Notes under the pieces: model-generated
Database searches by the model: none
What the model saw: only the letters and a program-made list of their open reading frames with translations
What the model was told of the DNA's origin: nothing
Shown here: positions 271 through 23,440 of the stretch, one piece after another
Position numbering within the stretch: position 1 is the first letter of the stretch
Layout: each line of letters starts with the position of its first letter
Made by a program: the position numbers and the translations under genes
From: Aristaeella lactis
Lineage (GTDB): Bacteria; Bacillota; Clostridia; Christensenellales; Aristaeellaceae
DNA: 64,000 nucleotides
Reading direction: 5' to 3'
Assembly (NCBI RefSeq): GCF_018118585.1
Contig: NZ_CP069421.1
Span: 2,108,001 to 2,172,000, forward strand

Positions 271-300
271 CCGGGAGTGTTCATCACTCCCGGTTTTCTT
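271..300 (+). terminator. Terminator of the HU gene
   Basis: A 9-bp perfect stem (271-279 with 285-293), a 5-base loop and a T-rich tail TTTTCTT. It overlaps the 3' end of the opposite-strand phage-like gene that stops at 284, so the two convergent genes share this DNA. Confidence 0.85.
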
Positions 301-661
301 CGTTAATCAGCACCGCCAGGGCCTGAACAAACCCGAATCCCTGCCAGTTCCGTACCCTCACCACCCGCCAGGTCTGACCGTTCCACCGGATCCTGTCCGG
401 CGCGGTAAAGGAGCCGCTGTCATCCGCCGGTGTTCCGGTGCTCAGGGCATAGTCGGTATAGATCACAATACAGGACTCCTTCTTTTCCTCTTCCGGCAGC
501 AGTTTCAGGCTTTCCGCTGTTCCGGGATGAATGCAGCCCGCCGCCTGCCCGGTCACGCTGCAGGAAACCGTTCCCTCCCGGCTCCGGGTGCAGGTGATCC
601 GCTCAACGGTAAAAGCAACAGATCCCAGTTCGGGATCATGGAGAACAGAAGAAATACCCAT
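284..661 (-). CDS. Phage head-closure (stopper)-like protein
   Basis: 125 residues, start ATG preceded by a GGAGG site five bases upstream. The C-terminal half (IRWNGQTWRVVRVRNWQGFG then a short hydrophobic strand) is the pattern seen in small head-tail joining or stopper proteins of tailed phages: an aromatic-rich strand describing a 'wanted location' and a beta-barrel core. I did not recognise it by one named family. The main support is position: it is the last of a minus-strand series (terminase, portal, protease, capsid, connector, gp10-like) in the order of phage head genes. It is separated from the preceding phage gene by four plus-strand cellular genes. The frame is intact. Alternative: a tail component or an unrelated small protein. 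Confidence 0.55.
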   Translation of the reverse strand: MGISSVLHDPELGSVAFTVERITCTRSREGTVSCSVTGQAAGCIHPGTAESLKLLPEEEKKESCIVIYTDYALSTGTPADDSGSFTAPDRIRWNGQTWRVVRVRNWQGFGFVQALAVLINEENRE

Positions 662-727
662 CAGACCTCCGTCATGGTATACTATAAGGGTTGTATCCAG
701 TTATTCAGGCAAGGAGAAAGAATCGAT

Positions 728-1099
728 ATGTTTCAGCGTATTTCCGGCTTCTTCCGCCGTTTATTCGGAAACAAGGGCTTCCGCCGCGCGTGCTGGGTCT
801 TTCTCGGTTTGTTCGTAGTTTACTATCTTTACAACATGGCCCTGTTCCTTCAGGCCCTGATACGTGCCGGTTTTACGCTCCGCTACGCGATTCGCGTGGT
901 GCTCCGTACCCCGCTGGTCTTCCGCTCCATATCTCCCTTCTGGAGTGTCCTGCTCGGGGTGTTCATCGGCCTGGCCTGGTTCTTTTACCGCAGATGGAAA
1001 AACACAGAAACGGAAAAAACAGAAGAAAAAGAGCCTGAGGTTCCCTCTTCCGTCAGTGAGGAAGATTTCCCGGACACAAACCGTCATATGTATCAATAA
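728..1099 (+). CDS. Small membrane protein, unknown function
   Basis: 123 residues; start chosen at the ATG 728 because AAGGAGAAAG lies just upstream; the longer open frame to the left crosses the opposite-strand gene and has no such site. A first hydrophobic helix at about residues 18-40 and a second at about 73-92, then a charged, Glu/Lys/Thr-rich tail that is probably cytoplasmic. No family recognised. It stands alone, divergent from the head-closure-like gene, with a possible -10 TATACT at 678. Confidence 0.6.
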   Translation: MFQRISGFFRRLFGNKGFRRACWVFLGLFVVYYLYNMALFLQALIRAGFTLRYAIRVVLRTPLVFRSISPFWSVLLGVFIGLAWFFYRRWKNTETEKTEEKEPEVPSSVSEEDFPDTNRHMYQ

Positions 1100-1266
1100 T
1101 TCCCCGATGTGATCAACTCATCGTTTTTATCCGGATATCCGTTTAAAACAGCACCTTCCTGCCAACTCTACGGATCGCAGACTCCGCTTTTCCGCCATAT
1201 TCTACGGTCCGTGGGTGTGATTTCAGGAAGGATTGCGGGATAATCCATCCCCGAAAGGAGGAGCGC

Positions 1267-1902
1267 ATGGATCAGGTCAGAACAGGCCGCTTTATCGCCG
1301 CGCGGCGGAAAGAGAAAGGCCTTACACAAAAGCAGCTCGCTGAAAAACTGGGCATCAGCGACAAAACGGTTTCGAAATGGGAATGCGGAAACGGATTCCC
1401 GGAAGTATCCCTGCTGCTTCCTCTGTGCGATGAACTCGGAATCACAGTCAATGACCTGCTGTCGGCCGAGCTTGTCCCCGGGGAAGCGTATCAGGAGAAA
1501 GCGGAGAATAATATGGTGGATATGATCAAAGAACGGGAGGAAAACCGGCGGCATTATATGCTTTTGTCCGCCCTGGGCGGTGTATCGCTGCTTTCCTTCC
1601 TGACCCTCTTGTTTGTGGCCTGCCTTCCCACAGGCGCCATCTCCCTGACCCTCAGGTTTATCATCCTGGCGATCGCCTTTTTGATCTTTGCGGTCGGCCT
1701 CCTGGCTGTTATCGAAGGGCAGCGGAAGATCGGGTATTATCAGTGCGCCAGGTGTTCCGGAACCTTCGTCCCGACGTTCTGGTCCCACGCTTTCGGACTG
1801 AACGTGGTGTCAAAACGGCTCCTGAAATGCCCCCGCTGCGGAAAGAGATCATTCTGCAAAAAAGTGATGTCCAGAGAGCCCGACGCACAGGAAGGAGACT
1901 GA
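1267..1902 (+). CDS. XRE-family regulator with membrane and zinc-ribbon segments
   Basis: 211 residues. Residues 5-62 are a typical XRE helix-turn-helix (KGLTQKQLAEKLGISDKTVSKWECG), a common Clostridia form that binds operator DNA. Two hydrophobic helices follow at about 100-120 and 127-150, and the C-terminus has two Cys pairs (CARC and CPRCG plus a later Cys), which look like a zinc ribbon. The protein should therefore be a membrane-tethered transcription regulator. Start is supported by GAAAGGAGGA eight bases upstream. It lies four bases ahead of a lipoprotein gene, so the two are probably one operon and the lipoprotein may be its sensor or target; that link is inference. Confidence 0.85.
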   Translation: MDQVRTGRFIAARRKEKGLTQKQLAEKLGISDKTVSKWECGNGFPEVSLLLPLCDELGITVNDLLSAELVPGEAYQEKAENNMVDMIKEREENRRHYMLLSALGGVSLLSFLTLLFVACLPTGAISLTLRFIILAIAFLIFAVGLLAVIEGQRKIGYYQCARCSGTFVPTFWSHAFGLNVVSKRLLKCPRCGKRSFCKKVMSREPDAQEGD

Positions 1903-1906
1903 ACTG

Positions 1907-2299
1907 ATGAAGAAAACAACAAAATGGCTGCTGGCCGCGGTGCTGATCGTCTGCCTGCTGTGCCTGACCGGCTGCAGCGGTAAATACTCCTCCCATTACA
2001 ACGCTGTGGGATGTGTTCATTCAAACACAACCCGCTCCGCCTTTCTGAACTTTGCCATTTTTGAAGGCCGGATGGCCTTTACCCTGAAAAGCAGCGGACA
2101 GCTGAAAGCATCCGCGAAACTGGGAACGGGCAGCGCCGTCGTGTATTATGATGACGGTGAAAAGAAAGAGCTGTTCTCCCTGGGCGCCGGTGAAGAACTT
2201 GATTCTGTATTTGGGCCCTTTGCGAATGAGACGGTTTACATCATCGTGGAAACCAGTGAAAAGTGCCAGGACGGAGAATTCCGTTTTGATATGGAATAG
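1907..2299 (+). CDS. Lipoprotein, unknown function
   Basis: 130 residues with a lipoprotein signal: positively charged MKKTTK, a hydrophobic core and lipobox LTGC with Cys at about residue 23. The mature part is a small beta-rich domain without a recognised family. Four bases after the membrane-bound XRE regulator, and followed by a terminator, so it closes a two-gene operon. Confidence 0.75.
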   Translation: MKKTTKWLLAAVLIVCLLCLTGCSGKYSSHYNAVGCVHSNTTRSAFLNFAIFEGRMAFTLKSSGQLKASAKLGTGSAVVYYDDGEKKELFSLGAGEELDSVFGPFANETVYIIVETSEKCQDGEFRFDME

Positions 2300-2320
2300 T
2301 CTCATCACAGGAATCCGCGT

Positions 2321-2356
2321 CGCGCCGGTTTTCATTGCCGGCGCGTTTTCCTTTTC
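2321..2356 (+). terminator. Terminator of the XRE-lipoprotein operon
   Basis: 8-bp GC stem (2321-2328 with 2338-2345), nine-base loop, then TTTTCCTTTTCCCC. Confidence 0.8.
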
Positions 2357-2433
2357 CCCTTGTTTTCATATCTGCTCCGTTATAATATTATTTGTCAGGG
2401 GTTGGAACAGACCAGACCGGAAGAGGGATTTTC

Positions 2434-3054
2434 ATGAATATCGGAATCATCCAGGCCAGCTCGCAGGTCGGAAAAAACAAGCTCATCTTCGACACGGTGA
2501 AGAAATACGCCGCCGGTTCGGAGATCATCAATTTCGGATGTACGGAAGATGAACCGGACCGTTACAGCTATATAGAGATCTCCGTACTGGCCGGAATGCT
2601 CCTTTCCTCCGGTGCCGTGGACTTCATCGTTACCGGATGTTCTTCCGGCCAGGGGATGATGCTTGCCTGCAACAGCTTCCCGGGCGTTCTGTGCGGATAC
2701 GCGCCGACCCCCATGGACGCTTATCTTTTCGCCCAGATCAATAACGGAAACGCGGTTTCCCTGCCGCTTGGCGAGGAATACACCTGGGCCGGATATGAAA
2801 ATTTTGATGCCACTGTCGCGAAACTGTTTTCGGAGCCCTTCGGCCAGGGTTACCCCAAAGGAGAAGCCGCCCGGAAGCTCAGGGATACCGAACTGCTCAA
2901 ACAGATACGCCGCAGTTCACAACGCGCCGCCGTTGACCTCCTGGAATCCCTGGACGGGGACTTCGTACGGTCCATCCTTCGCAAACAGAATGTCATCGGC
3001 TATATCCTGGAACATGGCCATGGCGGTATCGTGGACTGGCTTCAGGCCCGGTAA
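2434..3054 (+). CDS. RpiB/LacA/LacB-family sugar-phosphate isomerase
   Basis: 206 residues. The N-terminus, the Cys-containing strand FIVTGCSSGQGMMLACN and the 'SG.GM..aaNk..G' region match the RpiB/LacAB fold, cytoplasmic enzymes that isomerise aldose and ketose phosphates. It is longer than RpiB (about 150), with an extra C-terminal segment of about 60 residues. Start ATG 2434 follows AAGAGGGA; a -10 TATAAT is at 2381. It ends only 7 bp from the stop of the opposite-strand phage neck gene. Substrate unknown. Confidence 0.8.
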   Translation: MNIGIIQASSQVGKNKLIFDTVKKYAAGSEIINFGCTEDEPDRYSYIEISVLAGMLLSSGAVDFIVTGCSSGQGMMLACNSFPGVLCGYAPTPMDAYLFAQINNGNAVSLPLGEEYTWAGYENFDATVAKLFSEPFGQGYPKGEAARKLRDTELLKQIRRSSQRAAVDLLESLDGDFVRSILRKQNVIGYILEHGHGGIVDWLQAR

Positions 3055-3061
3055 AGCAGGG

Positions 3062-3568
3062 TTATTTCTCCGTGATCTCATAATCAAAATCGTCATACAG
3101 CTGTCCGGTATCGACCAGCGGGGTCGTACCGGATTTTCCTTTTACCGGCACGCCTTTTTTCGCGACCCGGTTATAGATCCATCCGCCGGAAAGCGTCACC
3201 GGTGCGTTCGGCGGGTCAATTCCCGCGTCAATATATTCCCGGATGCCGTCCACCCCGCGCTGACCGGCTTTCTCCAGTCCCTCCCGCGTGCCCGGAAAGT
3301 CTCCGGCAAAAGCAGCGCCGCAGGCTTCCGCCAGGCAGCCTGCCATTTCCTCCCGCAGGTCTTCCTGTGCCAGCGCCGGCTGCACCACCGGCCGCGGCGG
3401 GATCCGCATAACCGGTGACCCGCGGGTATGGATTCCCAGCAGGAACCGGGACCGGCCGGAGGCTTTAGATGTCAGTCCCACGTCCACCCGGTGCTTTCCC
3501 AGCCACTCCAGGCATTCCCTTCGTTTTTCCTGATGCTCTGAATCTTCATGGATAGTCAAAGTAATCAT
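3062..3568 (-). CDS. Phage gp10/GpG-like neck (virion morphogenesis) protein
   Basis: 168 residues. The segment IPPRPVVQPAL (the 'ipaRPflrpa' pattern), then a helical middle and the ending GKSGTTPLVDTGQLYDDFDY (the 'pLidTG.L..si' pattern) are characteristic of tail-completion and virion-morphogenesis proteins of phage (Mu GpG, HK97 gp10 type), which join head and tail. It sits between the DUF4054 connector and the head-closure-like gene in gene order, but 6.6 kb of plus-strand cellular genes lie on its 5' side. No Shine-Dalgarno is visible: an AT-rich repeat abuts the ATG. Frame intact. Confidence 0.75.
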   Translation of the reverse strand: MITLTIHEDSEHQEKRRECLEWLGKHRVDVGLTSKASGRSRFLLGIHTRGSPVMRIPPRPVVQPALAQEDLREEMAGCLAEACGAAFAGDFPGTREGLEKAGQRGVDGIREYIDAGIDPPNAPVTLSGGWIYNRVAKKGVPVKGKSGTTPLVDTGQLYDDFDYEITEK

Positions 3569-3685: not shown

Positions 3686-3901
3686 ATGAATAAGAAGGCA
3701 TTCAAAAGCGCGGTTCTTGTTACCATTGTTACGCTGGTCATTTTCGAGGCGATTGGCTTCCTTGGGCTGCTGATCAACAAGGACAGTGCCAGCACGTATG
3801 TTGATTTCAAGAACATGGCGTACCAGTCCGTCATCATCGTTATCTCCCTGGGTGTCGGTATATCCACCTATTTCCGGAAAAAGAATGAAACGGAAAAGTA
3901 A
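3686..3901 (+). CDS. Small two-helix membrane protein (paralogue of the gene at 16548)
   Basis: 71 residues beginning MNKKAFKSAVLVTIVTLVIFEA; two hydrophobic helices at about 8-30 and 45-62 separated by a short polar loop, and a basic tail. The gene at 16548-16754 encodes a protein with the same length, start (MNKNALK) and topology, so the two form a small family. AGGGAGAG precedes the start, and TATAAT lies at 3612. Function unknown. Confidence 0.75.
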   Translation: MNKKAFKSAVLVTIVTLVIFEAIGFLGLLINKDSASTYVDFKNMAYQSVIIVISLGVGISTYFRKKNETEK

Positions 3902-3942
3902 TCCCCCGCATACTCCTCCAGGTTCCTTTGTTTTCCTTCCTG

Positions 3943-3970
3943 CGCCGGTTCTTTACCGGCGTTTTCTTTT
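3943..3970 (+). terminator. Terminator after the small membrane protein
   Basis: 7-bp GC stem (3943-3949 with 3955-3961), five-base loop and TTTTCTTTT. Confidence 0.8.
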
Positions 3971-4033
3971 GTTCCGGTATCTCTCTGTGATATAATCCGG
4001 AAGAATAATCTGTCTGATCCACAGGAGTCTGTT

Positions 4034-4786
4034 ATGAACTGTAAGGAAATGACCCAGCAATACTTTTCCCGTTGGCTGGGTTCCGACGGCAATCTGCTGG
4101 CAGGAACGCAGAATGCCCCTGTTTTTCTCTTCACCCCGGAACGGAACACTGTCCAGGCCGGCTATGGCGAGCGTTTTGACGTCTGGGCCCTGGAAACAGC
4201 TTCCGGAACCTTCGTTTCCTTTGGAGACGCGGTGCGGGACAGTATCCCCCGGCTGGAAGAGTTCCTGCGCGGCGGCACGCCGCTGGGTCAGGCACTTCAG
4301 CAGGTTTACGGGGTCAGGCCCGAACACAGTATCCGCTGGTTCTACGCCGGCGATGACAGGGAAAGCCCGGACGCCCGCGTCCTGGAACCCTCCGACTATC
4401 CCGCCTTTGAGCAATTCTTCCGCTCGCAGTATCCGGATCTGGAAGACGTATCCTGGCTGCGGGAATACTTCGACGAGATGGCCGCGGAGCATCTCTGCTG
4501 CGGGGTTTTCATGGACGGCCTGCTCGTCAGCTGCACCGATATGCCGATAATGCCCTATATGCAGGAATCCATCCGGGAAATCGGGATCAATACGCTGGCG
4601 GCGTACCGGGGCCGGGGCTGCGCAAAGGCCGCCTGCCTTCAGTGCATCCATGAAGTCCTGTCCCGGGGCAAATGCCCGATCTGGTCCGCTGAAGCGGAAA
4701 ACACCGCGTCCCTCAGGCTGGCCGAGTCCGTCGGATTTGTCCGTCTGGGTGACTCATACTCCATAAGTCTTTCAACCGCCGGTTAA
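4034..4786 (+). CDS. GNAT-family N-acetyltransferase
   Basis: 250 residues. The C-terminal half has the acetyl-CoA-binding motif pattern YRGRGCAKA (R-G-x-G-x-A) at about 197-205, followed by the usual conserved segment with ENTASLRLAESVGF, defining a GNAT fold. The N-terminal 115 residues form a separate domain seen in larger clostridial GNAT proteins. Cytoplasmic; acetylates an amine on an unknown acceptor. Own promoter likely: TATAAT at 3991. Confidence 0.85.
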   Translation: MNCKEMTQQYFSRWLGSDGNLLAGTQNAPVFLFTPERNTVQAGYGERFDVWALETASGTFVSFGDAVRDSIPRLEEFLRGGTPLGQALQQVYGVRPEHSIRWFYAGDDRESPDARVLEPSDYPAFEQFFRSQYPDLEDVSWLREYFDEMAAEHLCCGVFMDGLLVSCTDMPIMPYMQESIREIGINTLAAYRGRGCAKAACLQCIHEVLSRGKCPIWSAEAENTASLRLAESVGFVRLGDSYSISLSTAG

Positions 4787-4862
4787 TTCCCCTTTGCCGT
4801 TCCTTGTGATATAATGCGTTCACCGCTGGAAAAACCCGCGGCATCAAAGGAGACAGAAACGC

Positions 4863-5378
4863 GTGGAAACCAGCGAAATTCTTATCGGAAACATCTGCAG
4901 CCTCGGAGCGATGATCACGGACGGCATCAGCGGAACCCGGAAAAATCCCCGGCACATCCTCGGTGCGCAGTTGATCAGCCAGTTCTTTTACGGCGCCGGA
5001 TCCTTCGTCCTGAAAGGCTACAGCAGCACGGCCCAGAACGTTGTGTCCGTTCTCCGTAACCTGGCGGCAATGAAAAATGTCAAAAGCAAAGCCGTCGAAT
5101 GGGACCTCATCCTGCTGGGTGTCGTGCTGGGCGCGGCGTTCAACAACCGCGGGCTCATCGGCTGGCTTCCCGTTATCGCGAACCTGGAATACTCCGTTGC
5201 CGTTTTCCGGCTGAAAGACAGCGAAAGAGGCCTGAAGCTCGCCTTCCTGATCAACGCCGTAATGTTCGCGGTCTTCAATCTTTCCATCATGAACTATGTC
5301 GGTGCCATCGGCAGCTTATCGGTTATCGTCATCACCGCGGTTTCCCTCCTCCGGAACAAACCGGCTCAAAACGTCTGA
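4863..5378 (+). CDS. YgjV-family inner membrane protein
   Basis: 171 residues with a GTG start supported by AAAGGAGAC. Several short hydrophobic helices and the features of the YgjV family (GAMITDGISGTRKNPRHIL; later YSVAVFRLKD) indicate a polytopic membrane protein of unknown function. A TATAAT box lies at 4810. The next gene, another membrane protein, begins 28 bp downstream, probably in the same transcript. Confidence 0.75.
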   Translation: METSEILIGNICSLGAMITDGISGTRKNPRHILGAQLISQFFYGAGSFVLKGYSSTAQNVVSVLRNLAAMKNVKSKAVEWDLILLGVVLGAAFNNRGLIGWLPVIANLEYSVAVFRLKDSERGLKLAFLINAVMFAVFNLSIMNYVGAIGSLSVIVITAVSLLRNKPAQNV

Positions 5379-5406
5379 TCCCCGTTGGGAAAAGGAAGAA
5401 GAAGTC

Positions 5407-6030
5407 ATGCAGATCCTGTTTATCCTTGAAATCATCGGTACCATCGCTTTCGCTGTTTCCGGCGCGGTTGTCGGCATACAGAAAAAGATGGATATCTTTG
5501 GCGTCAGTATCCTGGGCCTCACGGCAGCTGTCGGGGGCGGAATCCTGCGGGACCTGATCCTGAACATCACCCCGCCCGCGGCCTTCCAGAACCCTGTTTT
5601 CGCGGCCACCGCCATCCTTGTCAGCATCCTGATCTTCATCCCGGCGGTCCGGAATGTCTTTGAGCATGGAAAGAAGATTTATGAAGTCCTGATCCTGCTC
5701 ATGGATTCTGTCGGCCTGGGCCTTTTCACCGTGGTCGGCGTCCAGGTGGCCACTGCCGCCATGCCGGAGCGGAACCTGTTCCTGATCACCTTCGTCGGTG
5801 TGCTCACCGGGGTCGGCGGCGGCATCCTGCGGGATATCTTTGCCGGAAACACGCCCTATATCTTTATCAAGCACTTCTATGCCTGTGCCTCCATCATCGG
5901 GGCATGGACCTGTGCTCTGCTCTGGCCCCACACCGGTGCCGTAACCGCCATGATCGCCGGCGCTGCCATTACCGTGGTCCTGCGGCTGCTGGCTGCCCGT
6001 TTCCGGTGGAGCCTGCCGAAAGCCAGATAA
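5407..6030 (+). CDS. Trimeric intracellular cation (TRIC/UPF0126) channel family protein
   Basis: 207 residues, seven hydrophobic helices in two repeated halves, each carrying the signature GGGILRD (GLTAAVGGGILRDLIL and GVLTGVGGGILRDIFAG). This is the duplicated layout of the UPF0126/YicG family, bacterial relatives of TRIC potassium channels. Start ATG 5407 follows a GAAGAAG site; the longer frame upstream overlaps the YgjV gene. Channel specificity is not shown by the sequence. Confidence 0.88.
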   Translation: MQILFILEIIGTIAFAVSGAVVGIQKKMDIFGVSILGLTAAVGGGILRDLILNITPPAAFQNPVFAATAILVSILIFIPAVRNVFEHGKKIYEVLILLMDSVGLGLFTVVGVQVATAAMPERNLFLITFVGVLTGVGGGILRDIFAGNTPYIFIKHFYACASIIGAWTCALLWPHTGAVTAMIAGAAITVVLRLLAARFRWSLPKAR

Positions 6031-6080
6031 TCAGATTGGATAAACCTGTTTACAAATCTCAGCAAATGGAGAATGAAACA

Positions 6081-6500
6081 ATGGATCTGAAAGCTGTGGA
6101 GCGTTTTATCAGCAGGCAGAGTGTCAGTTTTGTCTGTTCTGTGGACGATGAAGGCTGCCCGAACGTCAAAGCTATGCTGAAGCCGCGGAAGCGGGTCGGA
6201 GTGAAGGAGTTCTGGTTCTCCACCAACACTTCTTCCATGAGGATCCGCCAGTACCTCGAAAACCCCAAAGCAAGCGTCTACTTTTATCACAAGGGGCTGA
6301 TCCATTATGAAGGCGTTATGCTGAAGGGTACTATGGCTGTTTTGACAGACCAGGCCTCAAAGGATATGATCTGGAGAAAAGGCGACACCATGTTCTACAA
6401 AAACGGTGTGACTGATCCGGACTACTGCGTCCTGAAGTTTACCGCGGAAAGCGGAAGGCATTACCGCGACCTGAAAACGGAAAATTCTGAGATTGACTGA
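6081..6500 (+). CDS. Pyridoxamine 5'-phosphate oxidase-like (split-barrel FMN) protein
   Basis: 139 residues. MDLKAVERFISRQSVSFVCS, then DDEGCPNVKAML and the TNTSSMRIRQYLENPKASVYFY segment match the FMN-binding split barrel of PNPOx-like general stress proteins. Start at ATG 6081 is preferred (GGAG nine bases upstream); an in-frame ATG at 6066 is possible. First of a run of three small enzymes on the plus strand. Substrate unknown. Confidence 0.82.
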   Translation: MDLKAVERFISRQSVSFVCSVDDEGCPNVKAMLKPRKRVGVKEFWFSTNTSSMRIRQYLENPKASVYFYHKGLIHYEGVMLKGTMAVLTDQASKDMIWRKGDTMFYKNGVTDPDYCVLKFTAESGRHYRDLKTENSEID

Positions 6501-6522
6501 ATAAACAACACGAGGAACCGCC

Positions 6523-6963
6523 ATGACAATTCGAACCATTGACAATGATATAAAGCTCATTCCCTACTACCGCAACGATGAGGCTTCCTTCCCCTGGTAC
6601 CAGGATCCGGATGTCTGCAAGCAGGTGGATAATATCGACCATGTCTATGACCTGGAAACCCTGCACCGGATGTACGACTATCTGTCCTCCCACGGGGACT
6701 GCTATTACATTGAGTATCAGGGTGTCCTGGTGGGCGACGTTTCCCTCCGGGACAGCAAGGAGCTGGCCATCGTGATCTGTAAGGAATACCAGAACCGGCA
6801 CATCGGCCGGAGATGCGTTACGGGCATGCTGGAGCTGGCCCGGGAAAAAGGCATGGACCGCGTCTGGGCCAATATCTATTCCTTCAACGAGCAAAGTAAA
6901 AGAATGTTCCTTGCGTTGGGCTTTACCCAAACCGGCGAGGAAGAATACGAACTGAAACTGTGA
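6523..6963 (+). CDS. GNAT-family N-acetyltransferase
   Basis: 146 residues. The NRHIGRRCVTGMLE segment (Q-x-x-G-I-G-x-x-V type, here NRHIGRR) and the later IYSFNEQSKRMFLALGF are the acetyl-CoA and substrate regions of GNAT enzymes. Start follows GAGGAACCGCC. Only 10 bp separate it from the next GNAT gene, and it follows the flavin-type gene by 22 bp, so the three are probably cotranscribed. Acceptor unknown. Confidence 0.85.
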   Translation: MTIRTIDNDIKLIPYYRNDEASFPWYQDPDVCKQVDNIDHVYDLETLHRMYDYLSSHGDCYYIEYQGVLVGDVSLRDSKELAIVICKEYQNRHIGRRCVTGMLELAREKGMDRVWANIYSFNEQSKRMFLALGFTQTGEEEYELKL

Positions 6964-6973
6964 AGAGGCAAAA

Positions 6974-7441
6974 ATGATCAAAGCATATAAACCCGCGCTG
7001 GATGAACTGTCTTTCCGGGAGAGCCTGATGGCCGATCCCGAGACCATGTCCTACAATGACGCCTGGGGCGGCACCATTCCCTTTCCGAAGGAAGACTGGC
7101 AAGACTGGTATGAGTACTGGATGGACGCTCCGGAATCTGAAATGTATTACCGTTACCTGTATGACGATGCGGTCGGCTGCTTTGTCGGCGAGATCGCCTA
7201 TCACTATGATGAGGACAGGAACATCCACATCTGTGACGTGATCGTCCTGGCCAAATACCGGGGCCGGGGATACGGTTCCGCCGGTATAAACCTGCTCTGC
7301 CAGGCAGCAAAGGAAAACGGCGTCGCTGTCCTGTATGACGATATTGCCGCGGACAATCCCTCCTGGAAACTGTTCCTGAAAAACGGCTTTGAGATCGACT
7401 GGCAGAATGACGAAGTCGTGATGGTAAAAAAGGTTTTATAA
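6974..7441 (+). CDS. GNAT-family N-acetyltransferase
   Basis: 155 residues with a clear acetyl-CoA loop KYRGRGYGSAGINLL and the C-terminal DNPSWKLFLKNGFEI. Adjacent to another GNAT gene but not closely similar to it, so not a recent duplication. AGAGG lies upstream of the ATG. Acceptor unknown. Confidence 0.87.
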   Translation: MIKAYKPALDELSFRESLMADPETMSYNDAWGGTIPFPKEDWQDWYEYWMDAPESEMYYRYLYDDAVGCFVGEIAYHYDEDRNIHICDVIVLAKYRGRGYGSAGINLLCQAAKENGVAVLYDDIAADNPSWKLFLKNGFEIDWQNDEVVMVKKVL

Positions 7442-7463
7442 CAGCGGAAGCAAGGTATTGCCG

Positions 7464-8633: not shown

Positions 8634-8742
8634 TACCCATCGTTATTCCGCCTGCTTTATCCTGTTTTTCCCGTCCGGTCAATGATACACTTCCCTTCAT
8701 GAAGGAGTTGTCTCCCGATCAGAACGAAAGAAGGATTCCGCT

Positions 8743-10624: not shown

Positions 10625-10639
10625 CGGCTTCACCTCCTG

Positions 10640-15795: not shown

Positions 15796-15804
15796 CCACT
15801 GTTC

Positions 15805-15838
15805 AAATACAGGCCGCCTCCGCTGCCTGTATTTTTCT
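15805..15838 (+). terminator. Terminator of the flippase gene
   Basis: 9-bp stem (15806-15814 with 15825-15833), ten-base loop, then TTTTCT. Confidence 0.75.
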
Positions 15839-15984
15839 ATTGTATTCATCGGCGGGAAATACGGCTCCGTATTTTTCCTGCCTTATCCTTTATTCCCTGT
15901 TGTTCCCGTGTTACTCTTTCATCACGATGAAACGCACCGGAACAGGTGCACAATCGCATCATCATTCATACAGGAGGATTCCCC

Positions 15985-16380
15985 ATGAAAATGACTTTTC
16001 TGAAAAGATTCGCAATCCTCAGCCTGCTGGTTTCCCTTTCCGTAATGCTTTCCGGATGCGGTTCCACCAGCGTTTTTGACGGTTCAAGGTCTGCCAATGA
16101 AGGCGGTTTCCAGATGGACTATGCTGTTCTGAACCGTGAAGAATCAGCCGATCTGTATCTTGAAGAAGGCGATCAGCTCGAAATCCGCTTTGCCCATTCT
16201 GCCGGCAGTATAGACGCAAGTGTCGGACAGGAAGGAAAAGAACCGCTCTACAGGGGAACTGACCAGAAGAACGGCGAATTCAGTCTCCCGATTTCTGAAG
16301 CCGGCACATACCATATCTCCGTGACCGGACATCAGGCAAAAGGAAGCGTTTCCTTCACCCGCGTCCCCGCCGGGGAATAA
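15985..16380 (+). CDS. Lipoprotein, unknown function
   Basis: 131 residues; ATG 15985 follows CAGGAGG. Signal peptide with lipobox MLSGCG. Mature domain is short and beta-rich, ending EAGTYHISVTGHQAKGSVSF, like small Ig-like or pre-peptidase folds that measure ligand at the cell surface. No family assigned. A terminator follows. Confidence 0.72.
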   Translation: MKMTFLKRFAILSLLVSLSVMLSGCGSTSVFDGSRSANEGGFQMDYAVLNREESADLYLEEGDQLEIRFAHSAGSIDASVGQEGKEPLYRGTDQKNGEFSLPISEAGTYHISVTGHQAKGSVSFTRVPAGE

Positions 16381-16404
16381 TACGTTTCCCCGTATCACGC
16401 ATTA

Positions 16405-16432
16405 CGGAACAGGTTTTCTGTTCCGTTTTTTT
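16405..16432 (+). terminator. Terminator of the lipoprotein gene
   Basis: Perfect 7-bp stem CGGAACA/TGTTCCG with a seven-base loop and eight Ts. Confidence 0.88.
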
Positions 16433-16547
16433 GTATTCTTCCTGTTTTCGGAGTTGTCGGTATAAATTACATCTGATATGCTGTATCAGGCATAAATTAT
16501 TACATGAGAACACTTCTGACCGACCTGTATATTAGGAGATAAACAAA

Positions 16548-16754
16548 ATGAACAAGAACGCGCTGAAAACCGCGGGTTTAGTCGCGGTTATTGCCCTGCT
16601 TGCGCTTGAAGCACTGTCTTTTGTTGTCACGCTGATTGATCCCCAGGGCGGTATCCTGCGCATTGATATGAGCAAACCCTTATCCCACGTGATCATCGCC
16701 GCTGTCGCGCTGGTGATCGGCGTATACGTCTATGTCCGTGAAAGCAAAAAATAA
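16548..16754 (+). CDS. Small two-helix membrane protein (paralogue of the gene at 3686)
   Basis: 68 residues, MNKNALKTAGLVAVIALLAL then a loop containing a Pro-Gln-Gly-Gly turn and a second helix with HVIIAAVALVIGVYVYV and a basic end. Same size and topology as the protein at 3686. AGGAGAT lies upstream of the start. Function unknown. Confidence 0.72.
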   Translation: MNKNALKTAGLVAVIALLALEALSFVVTLIDPQGGILRIDMSKPLSHVIIAAVALVIGVYVYVRESKK

Positions 16755-16836
16755 GATCGTTCCATAAAACAGGCACCCAACAACACAACAGACTACTGAA
16801 CAGCAAAATACAACACCGCGCGTATGGAGGTTTCCG

Positions 16837-18357
16837 ATGTTTAAGCGAATCCTTTCCCTGCTGCTGATTGCTGCCCTATGTTTCTGTGTCCCTGCCCTGG
16901 CGGAAAACACGGAGGAAGAAACGAAAGAATCCTTCCGTTCCCTGCCGGGCTATACCTGTTTTCCGCTGTCTGCGGACAGCAACGAAGAATATCCGGGGCA
17001 TTTCTGTATTGACTGCCCCATTGAATGGGACGGCGGTGAAAACAGCGAAGTATACGGCCTTCCTTCCGTCATTGCCATGGATCCTGAAAACCAGAATCAT
17101 CTGATCCTGGCTGTGGAAATAAGCCTGTCCGACCAGGCCCTCATCATGGTGGATGAGAACAATCCCACCTACAGTTTCCTGTGGGAGGGCCTGTACGTCA
17201 CGCAGGGCATCAGCACCAATGAAAGCAAAATCGTCGAGCAGTTTGACCTTCACGGCTTTCCTGCCACCCGGGTGGAAATGGTCGGCCAGGGTTTTGAAAT
17301 GGTCTGGATCATGGACCCCTATGACGGGATCAGCCTGGATGATGAAATCAAGGTCATGGGCGATCTCTGGTTCTTCATGTACACCACGGATCCGGATGAC
17401 GCGGAATACACAAACACCATTTCTGAAATGGTTGATTCCTTCACGACCTGCGGCGTTTTCAGTTTCGGACCCATGAGCCTGGATATTGCTCCCGCTTCCG
17501 ATTTTGCCTATAAGATTGAGCAGGATGAAGTATGCCTGACTGCCTATGTCGGGAAAAGTGATTACGTTGTTGTACCCGCCGAGATCGAAGGCAAACCGGT
17601 CACTTCCATGAACAGCTGTGTCTTTTATGAAACCGGTGTCCGTTATGTTGCCCTGCCGGATACGGTCCGTGAAATGGGTTCCAGCACCTTCGGCGGCTGC
17701 ACCCACCTGATTTATGCCCGCATGCCGGACTCCCTGGAAGTGCTCCCCTCCGCAACCTTTGAAAGCTGTTTCCGGCTGGCAAACCCGGGGCTGAACGAAG
17801 GCCTGAAGAAAATAGAGTATGCCGCGTTCTGGGGCAACTATTACCTGAACGCGCTGCAGCTGCCCAAATCCCTGGAGCAGATCGATGATAACGCCTTTGT
17901 AATGTGCGACTACCTGGCTTACATCAACGCCCCTGAAGAAAACACCCATTTCCGGAGCAATGAGGATAACACCATCCTCATGTCCGCCGACGGCACAAAA
18001 CTGATCTTCTATTCCTTCATGAATGAAGCAAAGGAATACCAGGTTCCGGACGGTGTAAAGATGATCTATGCCAACTCCTTCAACCGGGCGCCCCTGACCG
18101 GCATCACCCTGCCCGACGGCCTGGAATACATCGGCTACAACGCCTTCGGCAGGACCGGCATCAAAGAGTTGCATGTTCCGGCCAGTGTCACCGCCATCGG
18201 CATCATGGATAACGTTTCTATGGAGGATAATCCCGAGCTTCAGACCGGTGCGTACGTTTCCCTTGGCAACAGCCTGCAGACCATCTGCGGTGCTGCCGGT
18301 TCCGCAGCCGAAAAGTACGCCGAGATCCATAAGCTGACTTTTGTTCCGGAAGAATAG
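16837..18357 (+). CDS. Secreted leucine-rich-repeat (BspA-like) protein
   Basis: 506 residues with signal peptide (MFKRILSLLLIAALCFCVPALA). Residues 30-210 form an N-terminal domain without recognised family; from about 240 on there are BspA-type LRR_5 units of about 23 residues (for example VRYVALPDTVREMGSSTFGGC, LEYIGYNAFGRTGIKELHVP). Such surface proteins bind host or plant material or other cells. Start supported by TATGGAGGT. A long palindrome directly follows the stop. No anchor motif is visible, so it is probably released. Confidence 0.85.
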   Translation: MFKRILSLLLIAALCFCVPALAENTEEETKESFRSLPGYTCFPLSADSNEEYPGHFCIDCPIEWDGGENSEVYGLPSVIAMDPENQNHLILAVEISLSDQALIMVDENNPTYSFLWEGLYVTQGISTNESKIVEQFDLHGFPATRVEMVGQGFEMVWIMDPYDGISLDDEIKVMGDLWFFMYTTDPDDAEYTNTISEMVDSFTTCGVFSFGPMSLDIAPASDFAYKIEQDEVCLTAYVGKSDYVVVPAEIEGKPVTSMNSCVFYETGVRYVALPDTVREMGSSTFGGCTHLIYARMPDSLEVLPSATFESCFRLANPGLNEGLKKIEYAAFWGNYYLNALQLPKSLEQIDDNAFVMCDYLAYINAPEENTHFRSNEDNTILMSADGTKLIFYSFMNEAKEYQVPDGVKMIYANSFNRAPLTGITLPDGLEYIGYNAFGRTGIKELHVPASVTAIGIMDNVSMEDNPELQTGAYVSLGNSLQTICGAAGSAAEKYAEIHKLTFVPEE

Positions 18358-18387
18358 TTATCAAACGGAGTGCACTCCGTTTGATAA
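18358..18387. repeat. 30-bp perfect palindrome after the LRR gene
   Basis: Bases 18358-18372 are exactly complementary to 18373-18387. It has no loop and only ends in AAACA, so it is a weak terminator on paper, but it could fold as an mRNA 3' hairpin. It starts the composite intergenic region below. Confidence 0.75.
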
Positions 18388-18391
18388 ACAT

Positions 18392-18520
18392 GTCATCCCG
18401 AACAAACAAAGTGTGCAAGGAAAGCTGAATTAAATCCTGAAAACAGCGCCTCCGGCGCTGTTTTATCCACCATTATTCATTATTCATTTTTAAGTCTTAA
18501 GTTTTAAGTATTATACTTCC
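18392..18520. repeat. Composite intergenic repeat: GTCATCC element, hairpin and CATTATTCAT string
   Basis: In order: a GTCATCCCGAACAAAC element (18392-18425), a hairpin AACAGCGCC/GGCGCTGTT (about 18441-18461), then CCACCATTATTCATTATTCA and TTAAGT units. The same order occurs at 33566-33700. The rest of this 308-bp gap (to 18665) holds a -10 like TATAAT at 18602 for the next gene and nothing else I can name. Confidence 0.7.
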
Positions 18521-18665
18521 TATCTCCTACTTCCTACCTCTTTTACAAAATAGCCCCTCCTATTTTTCCGGATCCGTCCTGTACTCTGCTCATGCCGTAC
18601 GTATAATCAGTATAAAGAGCTGTACTGGAAACTAAATCTGATCGGGAAAGGATGTATGTCTCCAT

Positions 18666-20351
18666 ATGAAGAAACGCTTTACAGCCCTGCTGCTCCTGGC
18701 TTCCATGCTTCTGGCAGCCCTGCCTGTGTCCGCCGCGGAACTGAACACCCCGGTTGAGGATTTTACCGTGGAGCAGACAGATTCCGGCTTCACGGTGATC
18801 CTGCCGGACGGATATGCTGAAAAAGGATTCTTCAAACTCTTCTGGAAGAATAACCTTACCGATGAAACCCTGAACGCCGTTTTCCCGGTTGATACGACCG
18901 CCTATCAGATCGAGACCGAAGCCGGCGCGGAATACAGCTTCCAGCTGTTTTACGCCAAGAAGCGCGGTCTGCTTCCGGCTGGCTGGAAAGAGGAAAAAGC
19001 GGAGGAAGAATTCCAAGGGCCCAGCATATGGAAAGTCCTGTGGATCGATGTAGAAACCGTCGACTGTCTCGGGATCACTAACCGCATGACAGAAAGAAAC
19101 CACCAGGTTTCCGAAGAGGTGTCCAAAGCATTTGAGTCATTTGTTGAAGAGTCCACAGACGGACTGGTCGATATTGAGATTACCCGGATGACCATCGATG
19201 AACCGGTCACAGCTCTCACATATAATCCGGATTATGGATACAGCCTGCCATCATCCGAACTCGACGTGAAGCACCTTGCCTTACGTAAATATGATTCCGT
19301 ACTTGTCATGGCACGCCTGGATCATTTTGCCCTGACATACGCAGGTCTGGCAACTGCTCCGGAAAACCCCCGTGAAGAACCTGGTTACGCGGTTGTCGTC
19401 ATGCTTGGTGATGATCCTTCTCCGGAGCACATAGCCGATATGAAGATCGTTTGTGTGCACGAATGGATCCATCAGCTGGGCAGCTTTTACCAAAAATGGC
19501 AGCTGGAAATTCCCAATCCGGACAAACCGGAAGTATACGGGTTTGATCCCTACACAGGAAACCGCGACATGCAGTTTTTTAAAGAAGTCCTGACGATGAA
19601 GGCGCAGGCTGATGACGGAAGGCTTCTGGGCGTGCCCGCTGAAGCCTGGCAGTACAAGCCAACCCATAACCCGGAGAAATGGAACCTGAGCTATCTGCAG
19701 GATCAGGAAGTGCCGGCGGATTTCCAGCCGCGGGAAAAACAGCCTGTCATAACGCCCGAACTGCCTGAAGGTCCCGATATCTTTGATATTCCTACGAACG
19801 GCATCATATATGAAAACGCGACAATGGACATTGGCTGTGCCCTGGAGGACTGGGTTTTTTACACCCAGCAGGGATACTTGAATCTCCTTGACACCAATCG
19901 TGCACGCGCAGGAGAGTATTCGGACGAGGATCCGGATTTCCTGAAAAACAATGATCCTGTCACCATGATGTATATGGCCAATTCGAAAAAACCTGGAACT
20001 GTCACTTTCCAGGTGAGCACCTCCGCCGTACCGTTCGTGAAGCAATACGGTGAAGAAGCATATGCTGAGGAAATAAAGAAGTTCTATGACCGGGCATTCA
20101 CCGCGTCATCACCGGATGATTTCAGTTATGAGATCATTCATCGCAGGATCTCGGACAGGGAAGTTCCCGGAATAAAGATCAGTTATAATGCCAACGGAAC
20201 TTTTGAAGTGTATACTGAGATGCTTTACTGGCTCAACGGAGATCTCCTGAATACCCTGATCATAAAGACCTCCATGACTGACTACTGTACCAGCATCCTG
20301 AACCATATTTACCTGCTTTCCAGTCCATATCACTATAGCCTTAATCCCTGA
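18666..20351 (+). CDS. Secreted zinc-protease-like protein (HEWIH motif)
   Basis: 561 residues; signal peptide MKKRFTALLLLASMLLAALPVSAAE. Residues 30-95 look like a fibronectin-III-type strand set (EDFTVEQTDSGFTVILPDGY). The middle contains VCVHEWIHQLGSFY, an HExxH zincin motif (His265, Glu266, His269), preceded by DVETVDCLGI and a long segment similar in shape to M6/M64-type proteases. A third ligand is not certain. It ends inside the 3' end of the opposite-strand phage portal gene (11-bp convergent overlap). Probably a secreted peptidase; family not certain. Confidence 0.65.
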   Translation: MKKRFTALLLLASMLLAALPVSAAELNTPVEDFTVEQTDSGFTVILPDGYAEKGFFKLFWKNNLTDETLNAVFPVDTTAYQIETEAGAEYSFQLFYAKKRGLLPAGWKEEKAEEEFQGPSIWKVLWIDVETVDCLGITNRMTERNHQVSEEVSKAFESFVEESTDGLVDIEITRMTIDEPVTALTYNPDYGYSLPSSELDVKHLALRKYDSVLVMARLDHFALTYAGLATAPENPREEPGYAVVVMLGDDPSPEHIADMKIVCVHEWIHQLGSFYQKWQLEIPNPDKPEVYGFDPYTGNRDMQFFKEVLTMKAQADDGRLLGVPAEAWQYKPTHNPEKWNLSYLQDQEVPADFQPREKQPVITPELPEGPDIFDIPTNGIIYENATMDIGCALEDWVFYTQQGYLNLLDTNRARAGEYSDEDPDFLKNNDPVTMMYMANSKKPGTVTFQVSTSAVPFVKQYGEEAYAEEIKKFYDRAFTASSPDDFSYEIIHRRISDREVPGIKISYNANGTFEVYTEMLYWLNGDLLNTLIIKTSMTDYCTSILNHIYLLSSPYHYSLNP

Positions 20352-21645
20352 TCTTCGTATATACGCCCATCTCTTCTCCCCGGGATTTCAGTTCATTCAG
20401 CGCCTGTTCCCTTGTGAACAGACCGCACTTATACCCTTCGATCACGTCCCCGGACATTTTTTGCACCAGCTCCGCCCGTTCGGCGGGGCTGCTTGTCATT
20501 ACCGGCTCAAAAACAATTTCCAGGTCTTCCGGCACGAAGCCCCAGCAGGACACTGCCATCACCGGCAGCAGCTTATCCAGCGCTGGCCGGAGCATCCTCT
20601 CCTGCATCTGGGCGATCATATCGTAGTAATTCCGCAGGTCTGATTCCCCGGTGGCGTTCATCCCCTGCGGACTCCGGCCGAACAGCCTTGTCGCCGGGAT
20701 CTCCGCCGCCCCGGCCATATCCATCATGAACTGCTCATAGATCTCACTCAGTCCGGCAAAGGAATAAGGGTGATTTTCCAGGCAGTCATCCCTCGACATC
20801 AGCTGAAGCCCGAAGGAGGTCCGGAACCGGTTCTCTGTTTCCATGGCGTATTCCAGGTTCCTGCGCTGTTCCTCCGTGCCCGTGCCAAGCAGGTCACCGA
20901 AGTCTGCCATCTTCAGGGTGGTGATATTCGCCTGGAAGATCAGCTGGGCTATGTTGGCCGAAGCCGCGCTGCGCTTGAGCAGTTCATCCTGGATATGCTC
21001 CATCTCGCTGACTCCCCAGTACCGCTCCCGGATGGTCTCCACCCGCGGCAGTTCCCGCCCGACAAACCGCAGCACACGGGAGTGATGCAGGGTTACGGAG
21101 CTGTATCCCTCCATGTTCAGGTTCACGGTATAGCTGGCCGGCAGTCCGAAATCCGGATCATCCAGGTCTGACACCAGTTCCTCCGATGGCTCGATCCCCT
21201 GGGTCCGGTCCAGCACCAGCAGTCCCTGAAAGCATCCCGGCAGCAGCATATCCATATCCAGCGGCTGGTCCAGCCGGTCTTCCTCACCCCGGATCACCAT
21301 CAGTGCCAGGGAGCCGCCATACAGCCTGGCCCACCGGAGGGCATTGGTCAGTTCCTGTTTGATGCTGTGGCGTGCTTCCAGGCGGCGCAGGGCATGAATT
21401 TCGTCTTCATCCAGGTCCGCGGTAAGCCTGTACCAGGCCCGGGTCATGTCTTCCGAGGGCATGTCGATGATCCGCATGGTCAGCCAGGATTCCCTGTACA
21501 TGGCTGTCAGGAGTTCCGGATCCGACGTCAGCCCGGAGCGGACAAAGGTGCCTGCCGAAAGCAGCACAGAATCTTTCCCCAGGAACGCCGCCGTGTTGGA
21601 ATAACCGTCACGGGCAAAGCTTCGCTTTTTCAATTCATAATTCAT
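20341..21645 (-). CDS. DUF1073-family phage portal protein
   Basis: 434 residues. Features of DUF1073 portals: SWLTMRIIDMPSEDMTRAWY near the start, then HSIKQELTNALRWARLYGGS, RETIRERYWGVSEMEHIQDEL-like middle and TRLFGRSPQGMNATGESDLRNYYDMI, the portal 'GmNATGE' loop. It forms the DNA channel. Automated names for this family sometimes say 'anti-CBASS Acb1', but the order terminase-portal-protease and these motifs argue for portal. The N-terminal MNYELKK is encoded by an AT-rich repeat and no Shine-Dalgarno is visible, so the original start may have been replaced. Confidence 0.85.
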   Translation of the reverse strand: MNYELKKRSFARDGYSNTAAFLGKDSVLLSAGTFVRSGLTSDPELLTAMYRESWLTMRIIDMPSEDMTRAWYRLTADLDEDEIHALRRLEARHSIKQELTNALRWARLYGGSLALMVIRGEEDRLDQPLDMDMLLPGCFQGLLVLDRTQGIEPSEELVSDLDDPDFGLPASYTVNLNMEGYSSVTLHHSRVLRFVGRELPRVETIRERYWGVSEMEHIQDELLKRSAASANIAQLIFQANITTLKMADFGDLLGTGTEEQRRNLEYAMETENRFRTSFGLQLMSRDDCLENHPYSFAGLSEIYEQFMMDMAGAAEIPATRLFGRSPQGMNATGESDLRNYYDMIAQMQERMLRPALDKLLPVMAVSCWGFVPEDLEIVFEPVMTSSPAERAELVQKMSGDVIEGYKCGLFTREQALNELKSRGEEMGVYTKIRD

Positions 21646-21770
21646 AATTCACAATTCATAATGATTATCATTTTCTCTCCTGCTGTATCAGATTATGGAT
21701 TCAAAGGATGGCGAAGCCATCCATCCACCATTATTCATTTTTCAGTATTCAATCTTCAGTATTCATTACG
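21625..21770. repeat. AT-rich repeat, GGATGGC hairpin and CATTATTCATTTTTCAG string
   Basis: Contains TTCATAATTCATAATTCAC overlapping the portal start, then a hairpin GGATGGC/GCCATCC (about 21706-21723) and CCACCATTATTCATTTTTCAG. The same hairpin-plus-string pair recurs at 41518-41590. Confidence 0.72.
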
Positions 21771-21797
21771 TTTCCGCGGTTAGATACCGCGGAAACG
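21769..21797. other. 12-bp inverted repeat around the terminase stop codon
   Basis: Arms 21769-21780 and 21786-21797 are perfectly complementary; the TAA of the large terminase gene occupies 21782-21780, at the stem-loop border. Same design as at the capsid and degV genes. Confidence 0.7.
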
Positions 21798-23030
21798 GTT
21801 TGTTTTCGTATGGCATAAATAGCGCATCGCGTCCATCGCGTGGTCATGTTCTTTCACCGGTCTTTCCTCCCCTTTCTGCCTGGCTTTCTCGTCCCAGGTA
21901 TAGCCATGGATTTCCCGCATCAGCGAGACGCAGTGGTTCCGTTCCGCCCGGACCTTCCGGTTTCCGATCAGCACCGCCGTTGTAGCGATCCCTTCCCGGA
22001 CGTCGTTTTTCGCGTCCAGTACACGGAAGCCCCGCTTTCGCAGTTCCGCCTTGAAGCTGGCCGCGCTGGGATCCACAATGATCTGCGTATTCCGGTCTCC
22101 GTCCAGGAACGCGTAAAGGTCGTCCGCGTATTCCGCGTCTGTTTTCTGCCTGCGCCGGGCTGTGGAATCCCAGTAATACTCTCTCATGATCCAGAAGGTT
22201 CTTCCATCGTCCCGCACATCCAGGAAAACACAGGGGTTCACTGTGCCGTAGTCCACAGCGCAGAAACGGCGCATATCCAGGAACGGCTGTTCCTCCTCGC
22301 CGCGTTCCGATTCGTCAAACGTGTTTTCCAGGTCATCCCACATAGGATAGACCGCGCCTTCGGCACTGACCCATTCTCCCAGGATATACTGGCGGTAAAA
22401 AACGCCCGAAAAGCTTCGGGCGTAGCTTTTCCGGATTGCTGGGGAAAGGGTCAGGTTATCATCCATGGTGAAATGCAGCCGGTACATGCCTATCTCATCC
22501 GCCCGGTCGATAAAATCCGTTTTCAGGAAATGATAGGCGCCGTTCGGGTTGCAGTTCAGAAAGATGCGGCTTCCCTCCACAGAACAGCGGCCGATCATCT
22601 GGTCCACAAAGGACCGGGGAAACAGGGCCGCCTCATCGGCATAGGCACCGGCAGCAGTCATTCCCTGAAGCTTGTCCTGGGCATTGTCCTTGTCCGCACC
22701 GAACAGGTAATAGCTGTTCCGGCCGATGATCACCTTTCCCTCCCCGCGTTTCCATTCATAGGGAATACCCAGGGTCTCCAGCATGGACAGCATCGGGCTG
22801 AGCACATTCCGTGCCAGGGCTCCGGAAGTGACACCGGCCATGATGAAATCCCGTCCCTGGAAGCAGGTCAGGCTCCAGAGCAGGAAGGACAGGATCATCG
22901 CCACCGTCTTTCCGCTCCGGATCGCCCCGTCCGCCAGCACAATGCGCCGGTCTTCATATCCGGACCCCGGCATCCACCAGTAAAGCAGCTGCCTTTGTTT
23001 GCGGGAAAAGGGCTGAAACTGGAAGCTCAG
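21780..23030 (-). CDS. terL: PBSX-family phage terminase large subunit
   Basis: ATP-driven DNA-packaging motor and nuclease. Walker A DGAIRSGKT; GAYADEAALFPRSF contains the Walker B/DEA region; nuclease residues in FCAVDYGTVNPCVFLD, IIVDPSAASFKAELRKRGF and HDHAMDAMRYL. All key motifs are intact. The first ATG (22973) would cut off the conserved PFSRKQRQLLYWW start, so I extend to CTG 23030, whose CTGA overlaps the TGA of the upstream gene (416 residues). CTG starts are rare; if wrong the protein starts at 22973. Confidence 0.88.
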   Translation of the reverse strand: MSFQFQPFSRKQRQLLYWWMPGSGYEDRRIVLADGAIRSGKTVAMILSFLLWSLTCFQGRDFIMAGVTSGALARNVLSPMLSMLETLGIPYEWKRGEGKVIIGRNSYYLFGADKDNAQDKLQGMTAAGAYADEAALFPRSFVDQMIGRCSVEGSRIFLNCNPNGAYHFLKTDFIDRADEIGMYRLHFTMDDNLTLSPAIRKSYARSFSGVFYRQYILGEWVSAEGAVYPMWDDLENTFDESERGEEEQPFLDMRRFCAVDYGTVNPCVFLDVRDDGRTFWIMREYYWDSTARRRQKTDAEYADDLYAFLDGDRNTQIIVDPSAASFKAELRKRGFRVLDAKNDVREGIATTAVLIGNRKVRAERNHCVSLMREIHGYTWDEKARQKGEERPVKEHDHAMDAMRYLCHTKTNRFRGI

Positions 23031-23440
23031 GACTCCTCGCCTCCCTCCTCCGGATCAGCGAACAGTTCCTGCATTTCCTCCCGCCGCGGCGCTGCCGCGG
23101 TTGTCAGGGCCCGGATCGCGGCTTCCGCGTTCTTCTGCGGATCCATACCGGCGTTGGGCAGGAAGCGGTTATACTGCTGGGAGATCAGGGTCGCGCTCTT
23201 TTTCAGCTGATCAAAACTGGCCCGCCGGATGGCGATCAGTCCGTCCTGGCGGATCATCTCAAGCGTTTCATTCAGGGAGTGCCTGTAAATCTTCCGGCAC
23301 CAGGCCTCCAGTTTCTTTTCCGTTGTACCGATATAGCCGAGGATCTCTTCGGTTTTGCACTGAATGGCGCCCAGTTCCTCAAACAGGTCACGGGTCAGTT
23401 CACGGCGAAGTCCGCGCAGGGCGACAGGTTCCACATTCAT
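23027..23440 (-). CDS. Small-terminase-like protein
   Basis: 137 residues, start ATG 23440 after AAGGAGGAATAAA. Helical; LRRELTRDLFEELGAIQCKT, then a helix-turn-helix-like middle with LEAWCRKIYRHSLNETLEMI and a C-terminal acidic tail EEGGEES. Position directly before and overlapping terL, plus HTH-like helices, suggests the DNA-recognising small subunit. Sequence similarity to known small terminases is not obvious by eye. Confidence 0.65.
   Translation of the reverse strand: MNVEPVALRGLRRELTRDLFEELGAIQCKTEEILGYIGTTEKKLEAWCRKIYRHSLNETLEMIRQDGLIAIRRASFDQLKKSATLISQQYNRFLPNAGMDPQKNAEAAIRALTTAAAPRREEMQELFADPEEGGEES

Follow-up and report, generated by a model that had tools for sequence, protein, structure and literature searches.

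A Candidate Contractile Gene Transfer Agent-Like Element Dispersed among Cellular Genes in Aristaeella lactis and Its Congeners

How does a series of phage head genes come to stand in canonical order on one strand of a bacterial chromosome while ordinary cellular genes on the other strand divide it into blocks? The locus that raises this question lies in Aristaeella lactis, in a 64,000-nucleotide stretch of contig NZ_CP069421.1 (the window; C1:2108001-2172000 of a 3.45-Mb, two-contig genome, G000), and was analyzed together with the stretch directly to its left (L002; C1:2088001-2108000) and with related genomes. Gene transfer agents (GTAs) are known from few lineages, mostly Alphaproteobacteria. 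We conclude, with a probability of roughly three in four, that the locus holds a domesticated, contractile, GTA-like element whose structural type is that of Pam3 and E217 and which has been passed on vertically and maintained by selection.

Ten minus-strand head and packaging genes occupy the window as open frames at the places given in the original prediction, and 8 of them have significant family matches (Pfam/PHROG); a 125-aa protein and TerS, which had no significant match in those searches, are both kept in place in relatives. The interrupting plus-strand blocks are cellular, as had been predicted (a helix-turn-helix [HTH] regulator, an RpiB-like gene, transporters, peptidases, a flippase, and a leucine-rich repeat [LRR] protein were identified, and the acetyltransferases are of the GNAT type). 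The ends of the open reading frames give the facing stop codons already described, with 7- and 12-base gaps and an 11-base overlap at 20341-20351. The window features are as follows.

23027..23440, minus strand: TerS, small terminase subunit, 137 aa (beside TerL in ~20 relatives)
21780..23030, minus strand: TerL, large terminase subunit, 416 aa, probable CTG start (PF03237/PF17289, phrog_2)
20341..21645, minus strand: portal (PF06381, E 7e-104; Pam3 portal 8hds, E 2e-44)
14179..20351, plus strand: interrupting cellular block 1, with a MurJ/MatE-like flippase, a lipoprotein-like gene, an LRR protein, and a 561-aa secreted protein
12751..14070, minus strand: head maturation protease/scaffold, DUF2213 (PF09979, E 3e-45; phrog_530)
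12258..12758, minus strand: capsid cement, E217 gp24/Pam3 gp6 family (PF22758, E 4e-18)
11246..12217, minus strand: major capsid protein (PF09950, E 3e-62; Pam3 capsid 8hdt, E 4e-20)
10640..11017, minus strand: small conserved head protein, 125 aa (in place in all relatives checked)
10217..10633, minus strand: head-tail connector, DUF4054 (PF13262, E 7e-8; phrog_302)
3686..10204, plus strand: interrupting cellular block 2, with acetyltransferases, a glycine transporter, an S41 peptidase, a CAAX protease, and others
3062..3568, minus strand: neck/tail completion protein (phrog_222, E 7e-21)
1267..3054, plus strand: interrupting cellular block 3, with the HTH regulator, a lipoprotein-like gene, and the RpiB-like gene
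284..661, minus strand: head-closure type protein (phrog_939, E 2e-17)

Left of the window, the particle series runs on along the same strand, in canonical order and in the same scattered pattern (L002 2740-19890, minus). Sheath, tube, and baseplate genes are present there, where the original prediction had proposed to look, and the head module, correctly read as canonical in order, is half of the object. The reported lack of lysis genes holds inside the window only, because the window edge cuts the gene set; an endolysin and a holin lie beyond it. The whole set, from TerS to holin, counts ~25 phage genes over ~41 kb (C1:2090740-2131440). Pfam/PHROG matches revealed neither an integrase nor a replication gene within this span, as had been stated for the window. 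The L002 features are as follows.

L002 19294-19890, minus strand: tail terminator (PF23961)
L002 17455-18576, minus strand: contractile sheath (DUF3383)
L002 15899-16333, minus strand: tube (PF11681)
L002 15354-15761, minus strand: chaperone (phrog_1688)
L002 14044-14856, minus strand: tape measure, short
L002 12361-12912, minus strand: Dit-like baseplate protein
L002 11931-12296, minus strand: structural protein (phrog_349)
L002 11142-11906, minus strand: hub
L002 near 10062-10400, minus strand: spike
L002 9650-10009, minus strand: gp25-like protein
L002 5238-6155, minus strand: baseplate J-like protein
L002 4760-5221, minus strand: tail-I-like protein
L002 3431-4291, minus strand: endolysin (NLPC_P60 plus PG_binding_1)
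L002 3216-3434, minus strand: small coiled-coil protein
L002 2740-3000, minus strand: holin (PF04531)

The capsid, portal, and sheath match structures of the contractile cyanophage Pam3 (8hdt, 8hds, and 8hdr), and the portal also matches E217 (PDB sequence searches). A related prophage has a tape measure of 1,553 aa, and the nearest related viral contig has one of 1,115 aa; the protein is 382 to 461 aa long in basal species and mostly 230 to 310 aa in the remaining species, a shortening from which we infer that the particle tail probably became much shorter.

Walker A (ADGAIRSGKT) and Walker B (GAYADEAALF) of TerL were present in every genus member checked, in line with the ATPase motifs reported earlier. 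The usual ATG call (22973) is too short, because it would drop a conserved FSRKQ..LL segment that lies upstream; a CTG at 23030, overlapping the TerS stop (window 23028-23030), restores the segment, gives 416 aa, and is probably the start. The upstream frame is conserved in relatives, where the starts are ATG, TTG, CTG, ATA, and ATC, and the non-ATG starts may tune the terminase down. An AlphaFold model of TerS (helices 17-25, 30-37, 41-52, and 56-93, with a well-predicted three-helix N-terminal domain) predicts an HTH-like N-terminal domain plus a long oligomerization helix, so that the DNA-binding-like part seems to be kept, unlike reports for some GTAs; a fold search with this model gave no significant match.

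TerL was single copy in 27 of 44 congeners (75 to 92% identity across most of the protein); two more gave shorter matches, and no TerL of that identity was found in the other genera of the family. The public records that match equally well are Clostridia metagenome-assembled genomes (MAGs), many with ruminant gut sample names. Of the genomes of the genus, 13 are at least 90% complete, and each of them has one core gene or more, with the capsid in 12, the sheath in 12, and TerL in the thirteenth (G031). The TerLs of the genus form one group, separated by a long branch from other phage TerLs. The TerL and RpoB trees share 10 of 18 splits (at most 3 in 1,000 label shuffles), and their distances are correlated (Mantel r 0.75; 0 of 2,000 permutations); for 11 concatenated structural genes, 10 of 14 splits are shared with RpoB (at most 2 with shuffled labels), and Mantel r is 0.94 (0 of 2,000 permutations). 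The terminase-side flank is syntenic in G000, G022, G035, G007, and G040.

The genus shows a gradual dispersal of the particle genes. Clusters are compact in basal species (~14 kb in G042 and G017, ~19 kb in G008) and wider elsewhere (29 kb in G040, 33 kb in G044, at least 40 kb in the incomplete G016, 41 kb in G000, and 43 kb in G022); those of 29 to 43 kb are opened by cellular genes at 8 to 14 junctions, and those of crown species at 9 to 14. The particle genes keep their order almost everywhere; at least six further species show it with different cellular genes lying among them. The inserted genes, which vary by lineage, are ordinary cell genes located elsewhere in relatives. In six crown species, for instance, a Na/Ca exchanger lies inside the cluster, but in G044 it is ~329 kb away from TerL; the flippase gene lies inside only in crown species. 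The proposed synteny comparison uncovered compact clusters that are not integrated prophages (the G042 cluster is flanked by cellular genes, and its TerL has no neighboring integrase, repressor, or replication gene) and a dispersed order that recurs in independent complete genomes.

Inserted genes run opposite to the particle genes in 87 of 103 cases across six genomes (21 of 23 in G000 and 27 of 29 in G016, each strongly biased alone); the pooled P value of 5e-13 overstates independence, because G000 and G022 share some insertions. Two same-strand exceptions (G044 and G008) are the spike gene itself. We rejected the idea that the interruptions follow local gene orientation, since only 7 of 38 flanking genes in G000 point the way that 21 of the 23 inserted genes do. 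Opposite orientation plausibly survives because a codirectional constitutive promoter would switch on lethal capsid or lysis genes.

Some further features were seen at these junctions and in the inserted genes. Heptamer repeats (AATTCTG/AATTCAT) occur at particle/cellular gene junctions (window 11011 and 21632; L002 ~10043, 14339-14413, and 15870), and the protease has a similar-looking insert, NEQLTMNNEQF, seemingly in frame. Several small peptides with double-glycine-type leaders are inserted in the G016 cluster (C7:25199-36273; L051/L052), and their genes share a promoter-like element, CTGCCACC-N14-GCGTATATACAGGTG, with 6 of its 9 genome copies in the cluster. A candidate particle promoter element in the same genome, CACCTGTATATACGC, was rejected, as it is the promoter side of these inserted peptide genes.

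The clusters could instead be prophages of a host-restricted temperate phage lineage that tracks the host tree through genus or species specificity and took up cellular genes later, which we consider unlikely. In the genus, related prophages, whose structural genes are nested within the clade of the element, do carry replication genes and a different TerL (TerL-B, 0 to 11 copies per genome). G041 has three such clusters of the same structural lineage, which carry a phrog_38 TerL; at least one also holds a primase and a phage-type regulator. G011 has three structural copies. Because of the nesting, we rejected the idea that the G041 and G011 clusters are ordinary unrelated prophages. Their copies are monophyletic per species and lie inside the GTA clade, and prophage-type copies in G041, G011, G012, and G015 are the exception to vertical inheritance. 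The nesting suggests either that phages recaptured the GTA module or that there was a reversal. The TerL of the element (TerL-A), on the other hand, is single copy, and neither in the compact G042 cluster nor in the dispersed clusters does an integrase, repressor, or replication gene stand next to it; its locus is syntenic in five species, and the structural tree follows RpoB (r 0.94). No phage genome could take the form of a 41-kb locus crowded with cellular genes. A temperate prophage is marked by genes for integrase, lysogeny control, and replication that form a single excisable unit, and these were seen neither in the dispersed cluster nor in the G042 cluster.

The nested modules are found at L155 and L156 (G041), L151-L153 (G011), L255/L288 (G015 C32), and L133, with the phrog_38 TerL in G041, G015, and L133. 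Solitary terminase genes were also noted. G000 has a TerS/TerL-B pair (C1:2245553-2245960 and 2244262-2245647) beside an AT-rich region with defense-like genes; at L275 3641-5960 (C1:2243641-2245960), the pair is accompanied by a conserved 202-aa protein, without structural genes. A similar solitary TerL occurs in G038.

In G009, the capsid gene is split near codon 104 by a ~21-kb integrative element that carries two large serine recombinases. The same recombinase (98 to 100% identical) sits at the same capsid codon in G001, G010, and G036 despite capsid differences of up to 30%, and the rest of the genus showed no close copy. The locations are as follows.

Window 11895..11915, minus strand: exact insertion point of the serine-recombinase element in four relatives, near capsid codon 104-105; intact in G000
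L149 4005-20000 and L150 (G009 C40), L158 8121-10472 (G001), L248 (G010), and L163 (G036): capsid-gene element

These insertions, which break the capsid gene in at least four congeners, and the many others that interrupt the set might point to a functionless prophage in decay, the other reading originally offered. In 23 genes compared pairwise (NG86), the ratio of nonsynonymous to synonymous substitution rates (dN/dS) was 0 to 0.41 for nearly all genes and pairs (capsid, 0.01 to 0.17; TerL, 0.02 to 0.11; tube, 0 to 0.07), with values for distant pairs approximate because dS is high there. On these estimates, all particle genes compared are under purifying selection, and neutral decay is for practical purposes excluded. 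Frames are open, the genes are neither frameshifted nor neutral, and neutral decay would not explain the complete set being kept in independent lineages; we regard decay as very improbable. Neither of the refuting conditions set in the original prediction held. Scarcely credible is a tailocin or contractile injection system that kept its head genes by accident: the set does include sheath, tube, baseplate, spike, and lysis genes, but capsid and TerL are among the most conserved genes, which a headless particle would not explain. An assembly or binning artifact, for which one could cite the many MAGs among the relatives, can practically be dismissed, as the window genome is in 2 contigs and the same arrangement, with different insertions, recurs in G022, G035, and G044, which have 1 or 2.

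The domesticated-particle reading is the part of the original prediction that is supported, by a complete head, tail, and lysis set, a single-copy TerL across the genus, a host-congruent phylogeny, a conserved crown locus, dN/dS well below 1 in every gene, and the lack of integrase and replication genes. On this reading, an ancestor of the genus would have captured the head, packaging, tail, and lysis genes of a contractile phage, which lost its integration and replication functions and was afterwards inherited vertically and maintained by selection. On a host signal, a minority of cells would express the scattered blocks and assemble a small-tailed particle, filled with random host DNA by TerS/TerL; holin and endolysin would lyse the cell, and the released particles would inject their DNA into relatives. 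Over time, cellular genes came to lie between the particle genes, and they survive almost only in opposite orientation.

Several points weigh against the GTA-like reading. The element is known here from its genes, and the particle, its packaged DNA, and transfer are predicted from them. A GTA that packages random DNA might be expected to lose specific binding, and TerS keeps its predicted HTH-like domain. De novo searches in G000, G022/G035, G040, and G044 gave no promoter motif common to the blocks above control, no regulator shared by the scattered blocks was found, and no receptor-binding fiber was recognized in the particle gene set. Prophages with another TerL carry nested structural genes, so exchange with phages is not over. 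In some congeners at 85 to 89% completeness none of the particle genes was seen, RpoB is a single host marker, and many relatives are fragmented MAGs.

A fuller history can be proposed only tentatively, with the balance somewhat against it: a captured phage would have become a GTA and been dispersed under the orientation rule, its module would have been recaptured by, or have reverted to, multicopy prophages with a new terminase and primase, and the serine-recombinase element would have specialized in the capsid attachment site, switching the agent off.

If the GTA-like reading is right, an entire genus of Clostridia associated with ruminants and the gut has a contractile GTA candidate fixed in it, and genes in the rumen have a concrete candidate mechanism by which to flow. 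Different species still show the compact, the intermediate, and the dispersed state, so that virus domestication is directly observable. The opposite-strand rule can be tested as a trace of selection, which may have acted against expressing a lethal set of genes by accident. Loci of this kind may also get counted as viruses: the structural genes of two IMG/VR contigs (L133 and L134) belong to the clade, with capsid identity of 84 to 86%. Elsewhere in the window, a Gut-1 RNA (RF01706; 60063-60152, minus strand) scored above the gathering threshold.

We found no description of a contractile GTA in this bacterial group in the literature, in a search with most subscription journals outside it. The GTA definition of Kogay et al. 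2022 (PMC9662315) has six features. Three are supported here as far as sequence can tell, namely, caudoviricete-derived particle proteins (head, tail, and lysis homologues in Pfam, PHROG, and PDB sequence searches), full endogenization, often in several loci (chromosomal, at the same locus in five species, and split by cellular genes), and mostly vertical inheritance (TerL and 11 structural genes congruent with RpoB). The other three, a head too small for the gene set, packaging of mostly random host DNA, and delivery to cells (PMC9662315), are experimental.

Pam3 and Pseudomonas phage E217, homologous by sequence in capsid, portal, cement, and sheath, are both free-living phages with full genomes. 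The GTA of Rhodobacter capsulatus (RcGTA; Rhodogtaviriformidae) resembles the present element in having vertically inherited, phage-derived head, tail, and lysis genes at several loci, without replication or integration genes (PMC9662315). Its loci are far apart, whereas here the order is kept in one 41-kb stretch with opposite-strand cellular genes and TerS keeps a predicted HTH-like domain. Like the present element, RcGTA has a short tape measure; its tail is non-contractile. The element falls outside the RcGTA family, because that family has an RcGTA-type capsid and a siphovirus-like tail, and a contractile sheath and a PF09950/Pam3-type capsid are found here. The Brachyspira agent BhGTA (VSH-1) shares a single-copy conserved TerL, codiversification with the host genus, and dispersed genes (PMC9662315); it is non-contractile, and its genes lack the synteny among Brachyspira species that is kept here.

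PBSX of Bacillus subtilis is GTA-like and packages short random host DNA of 13.4 kb (PMC12946183). Compared by description only, it is likewise a GTA-like particle of a member of the Bacillota. PBSX is also contractile; its genes form one prophage-like block. GTA-like packaging has been reported in Christensenellaceae, with genes not named (PMC12946183). The closest recent parallel, again compared by description only, is FpGTA of Faecalibacterium (Borodovich et al. 2026; PMC12946183), also genus-wide in gut Clostridia and with structural and lysis genes in more than one operon; it resembles a podovirus and its two operons measure 10.5 and 5.5 kb, whereas the element described here is a contractile set of ~25 genes in about a dozen blocks.

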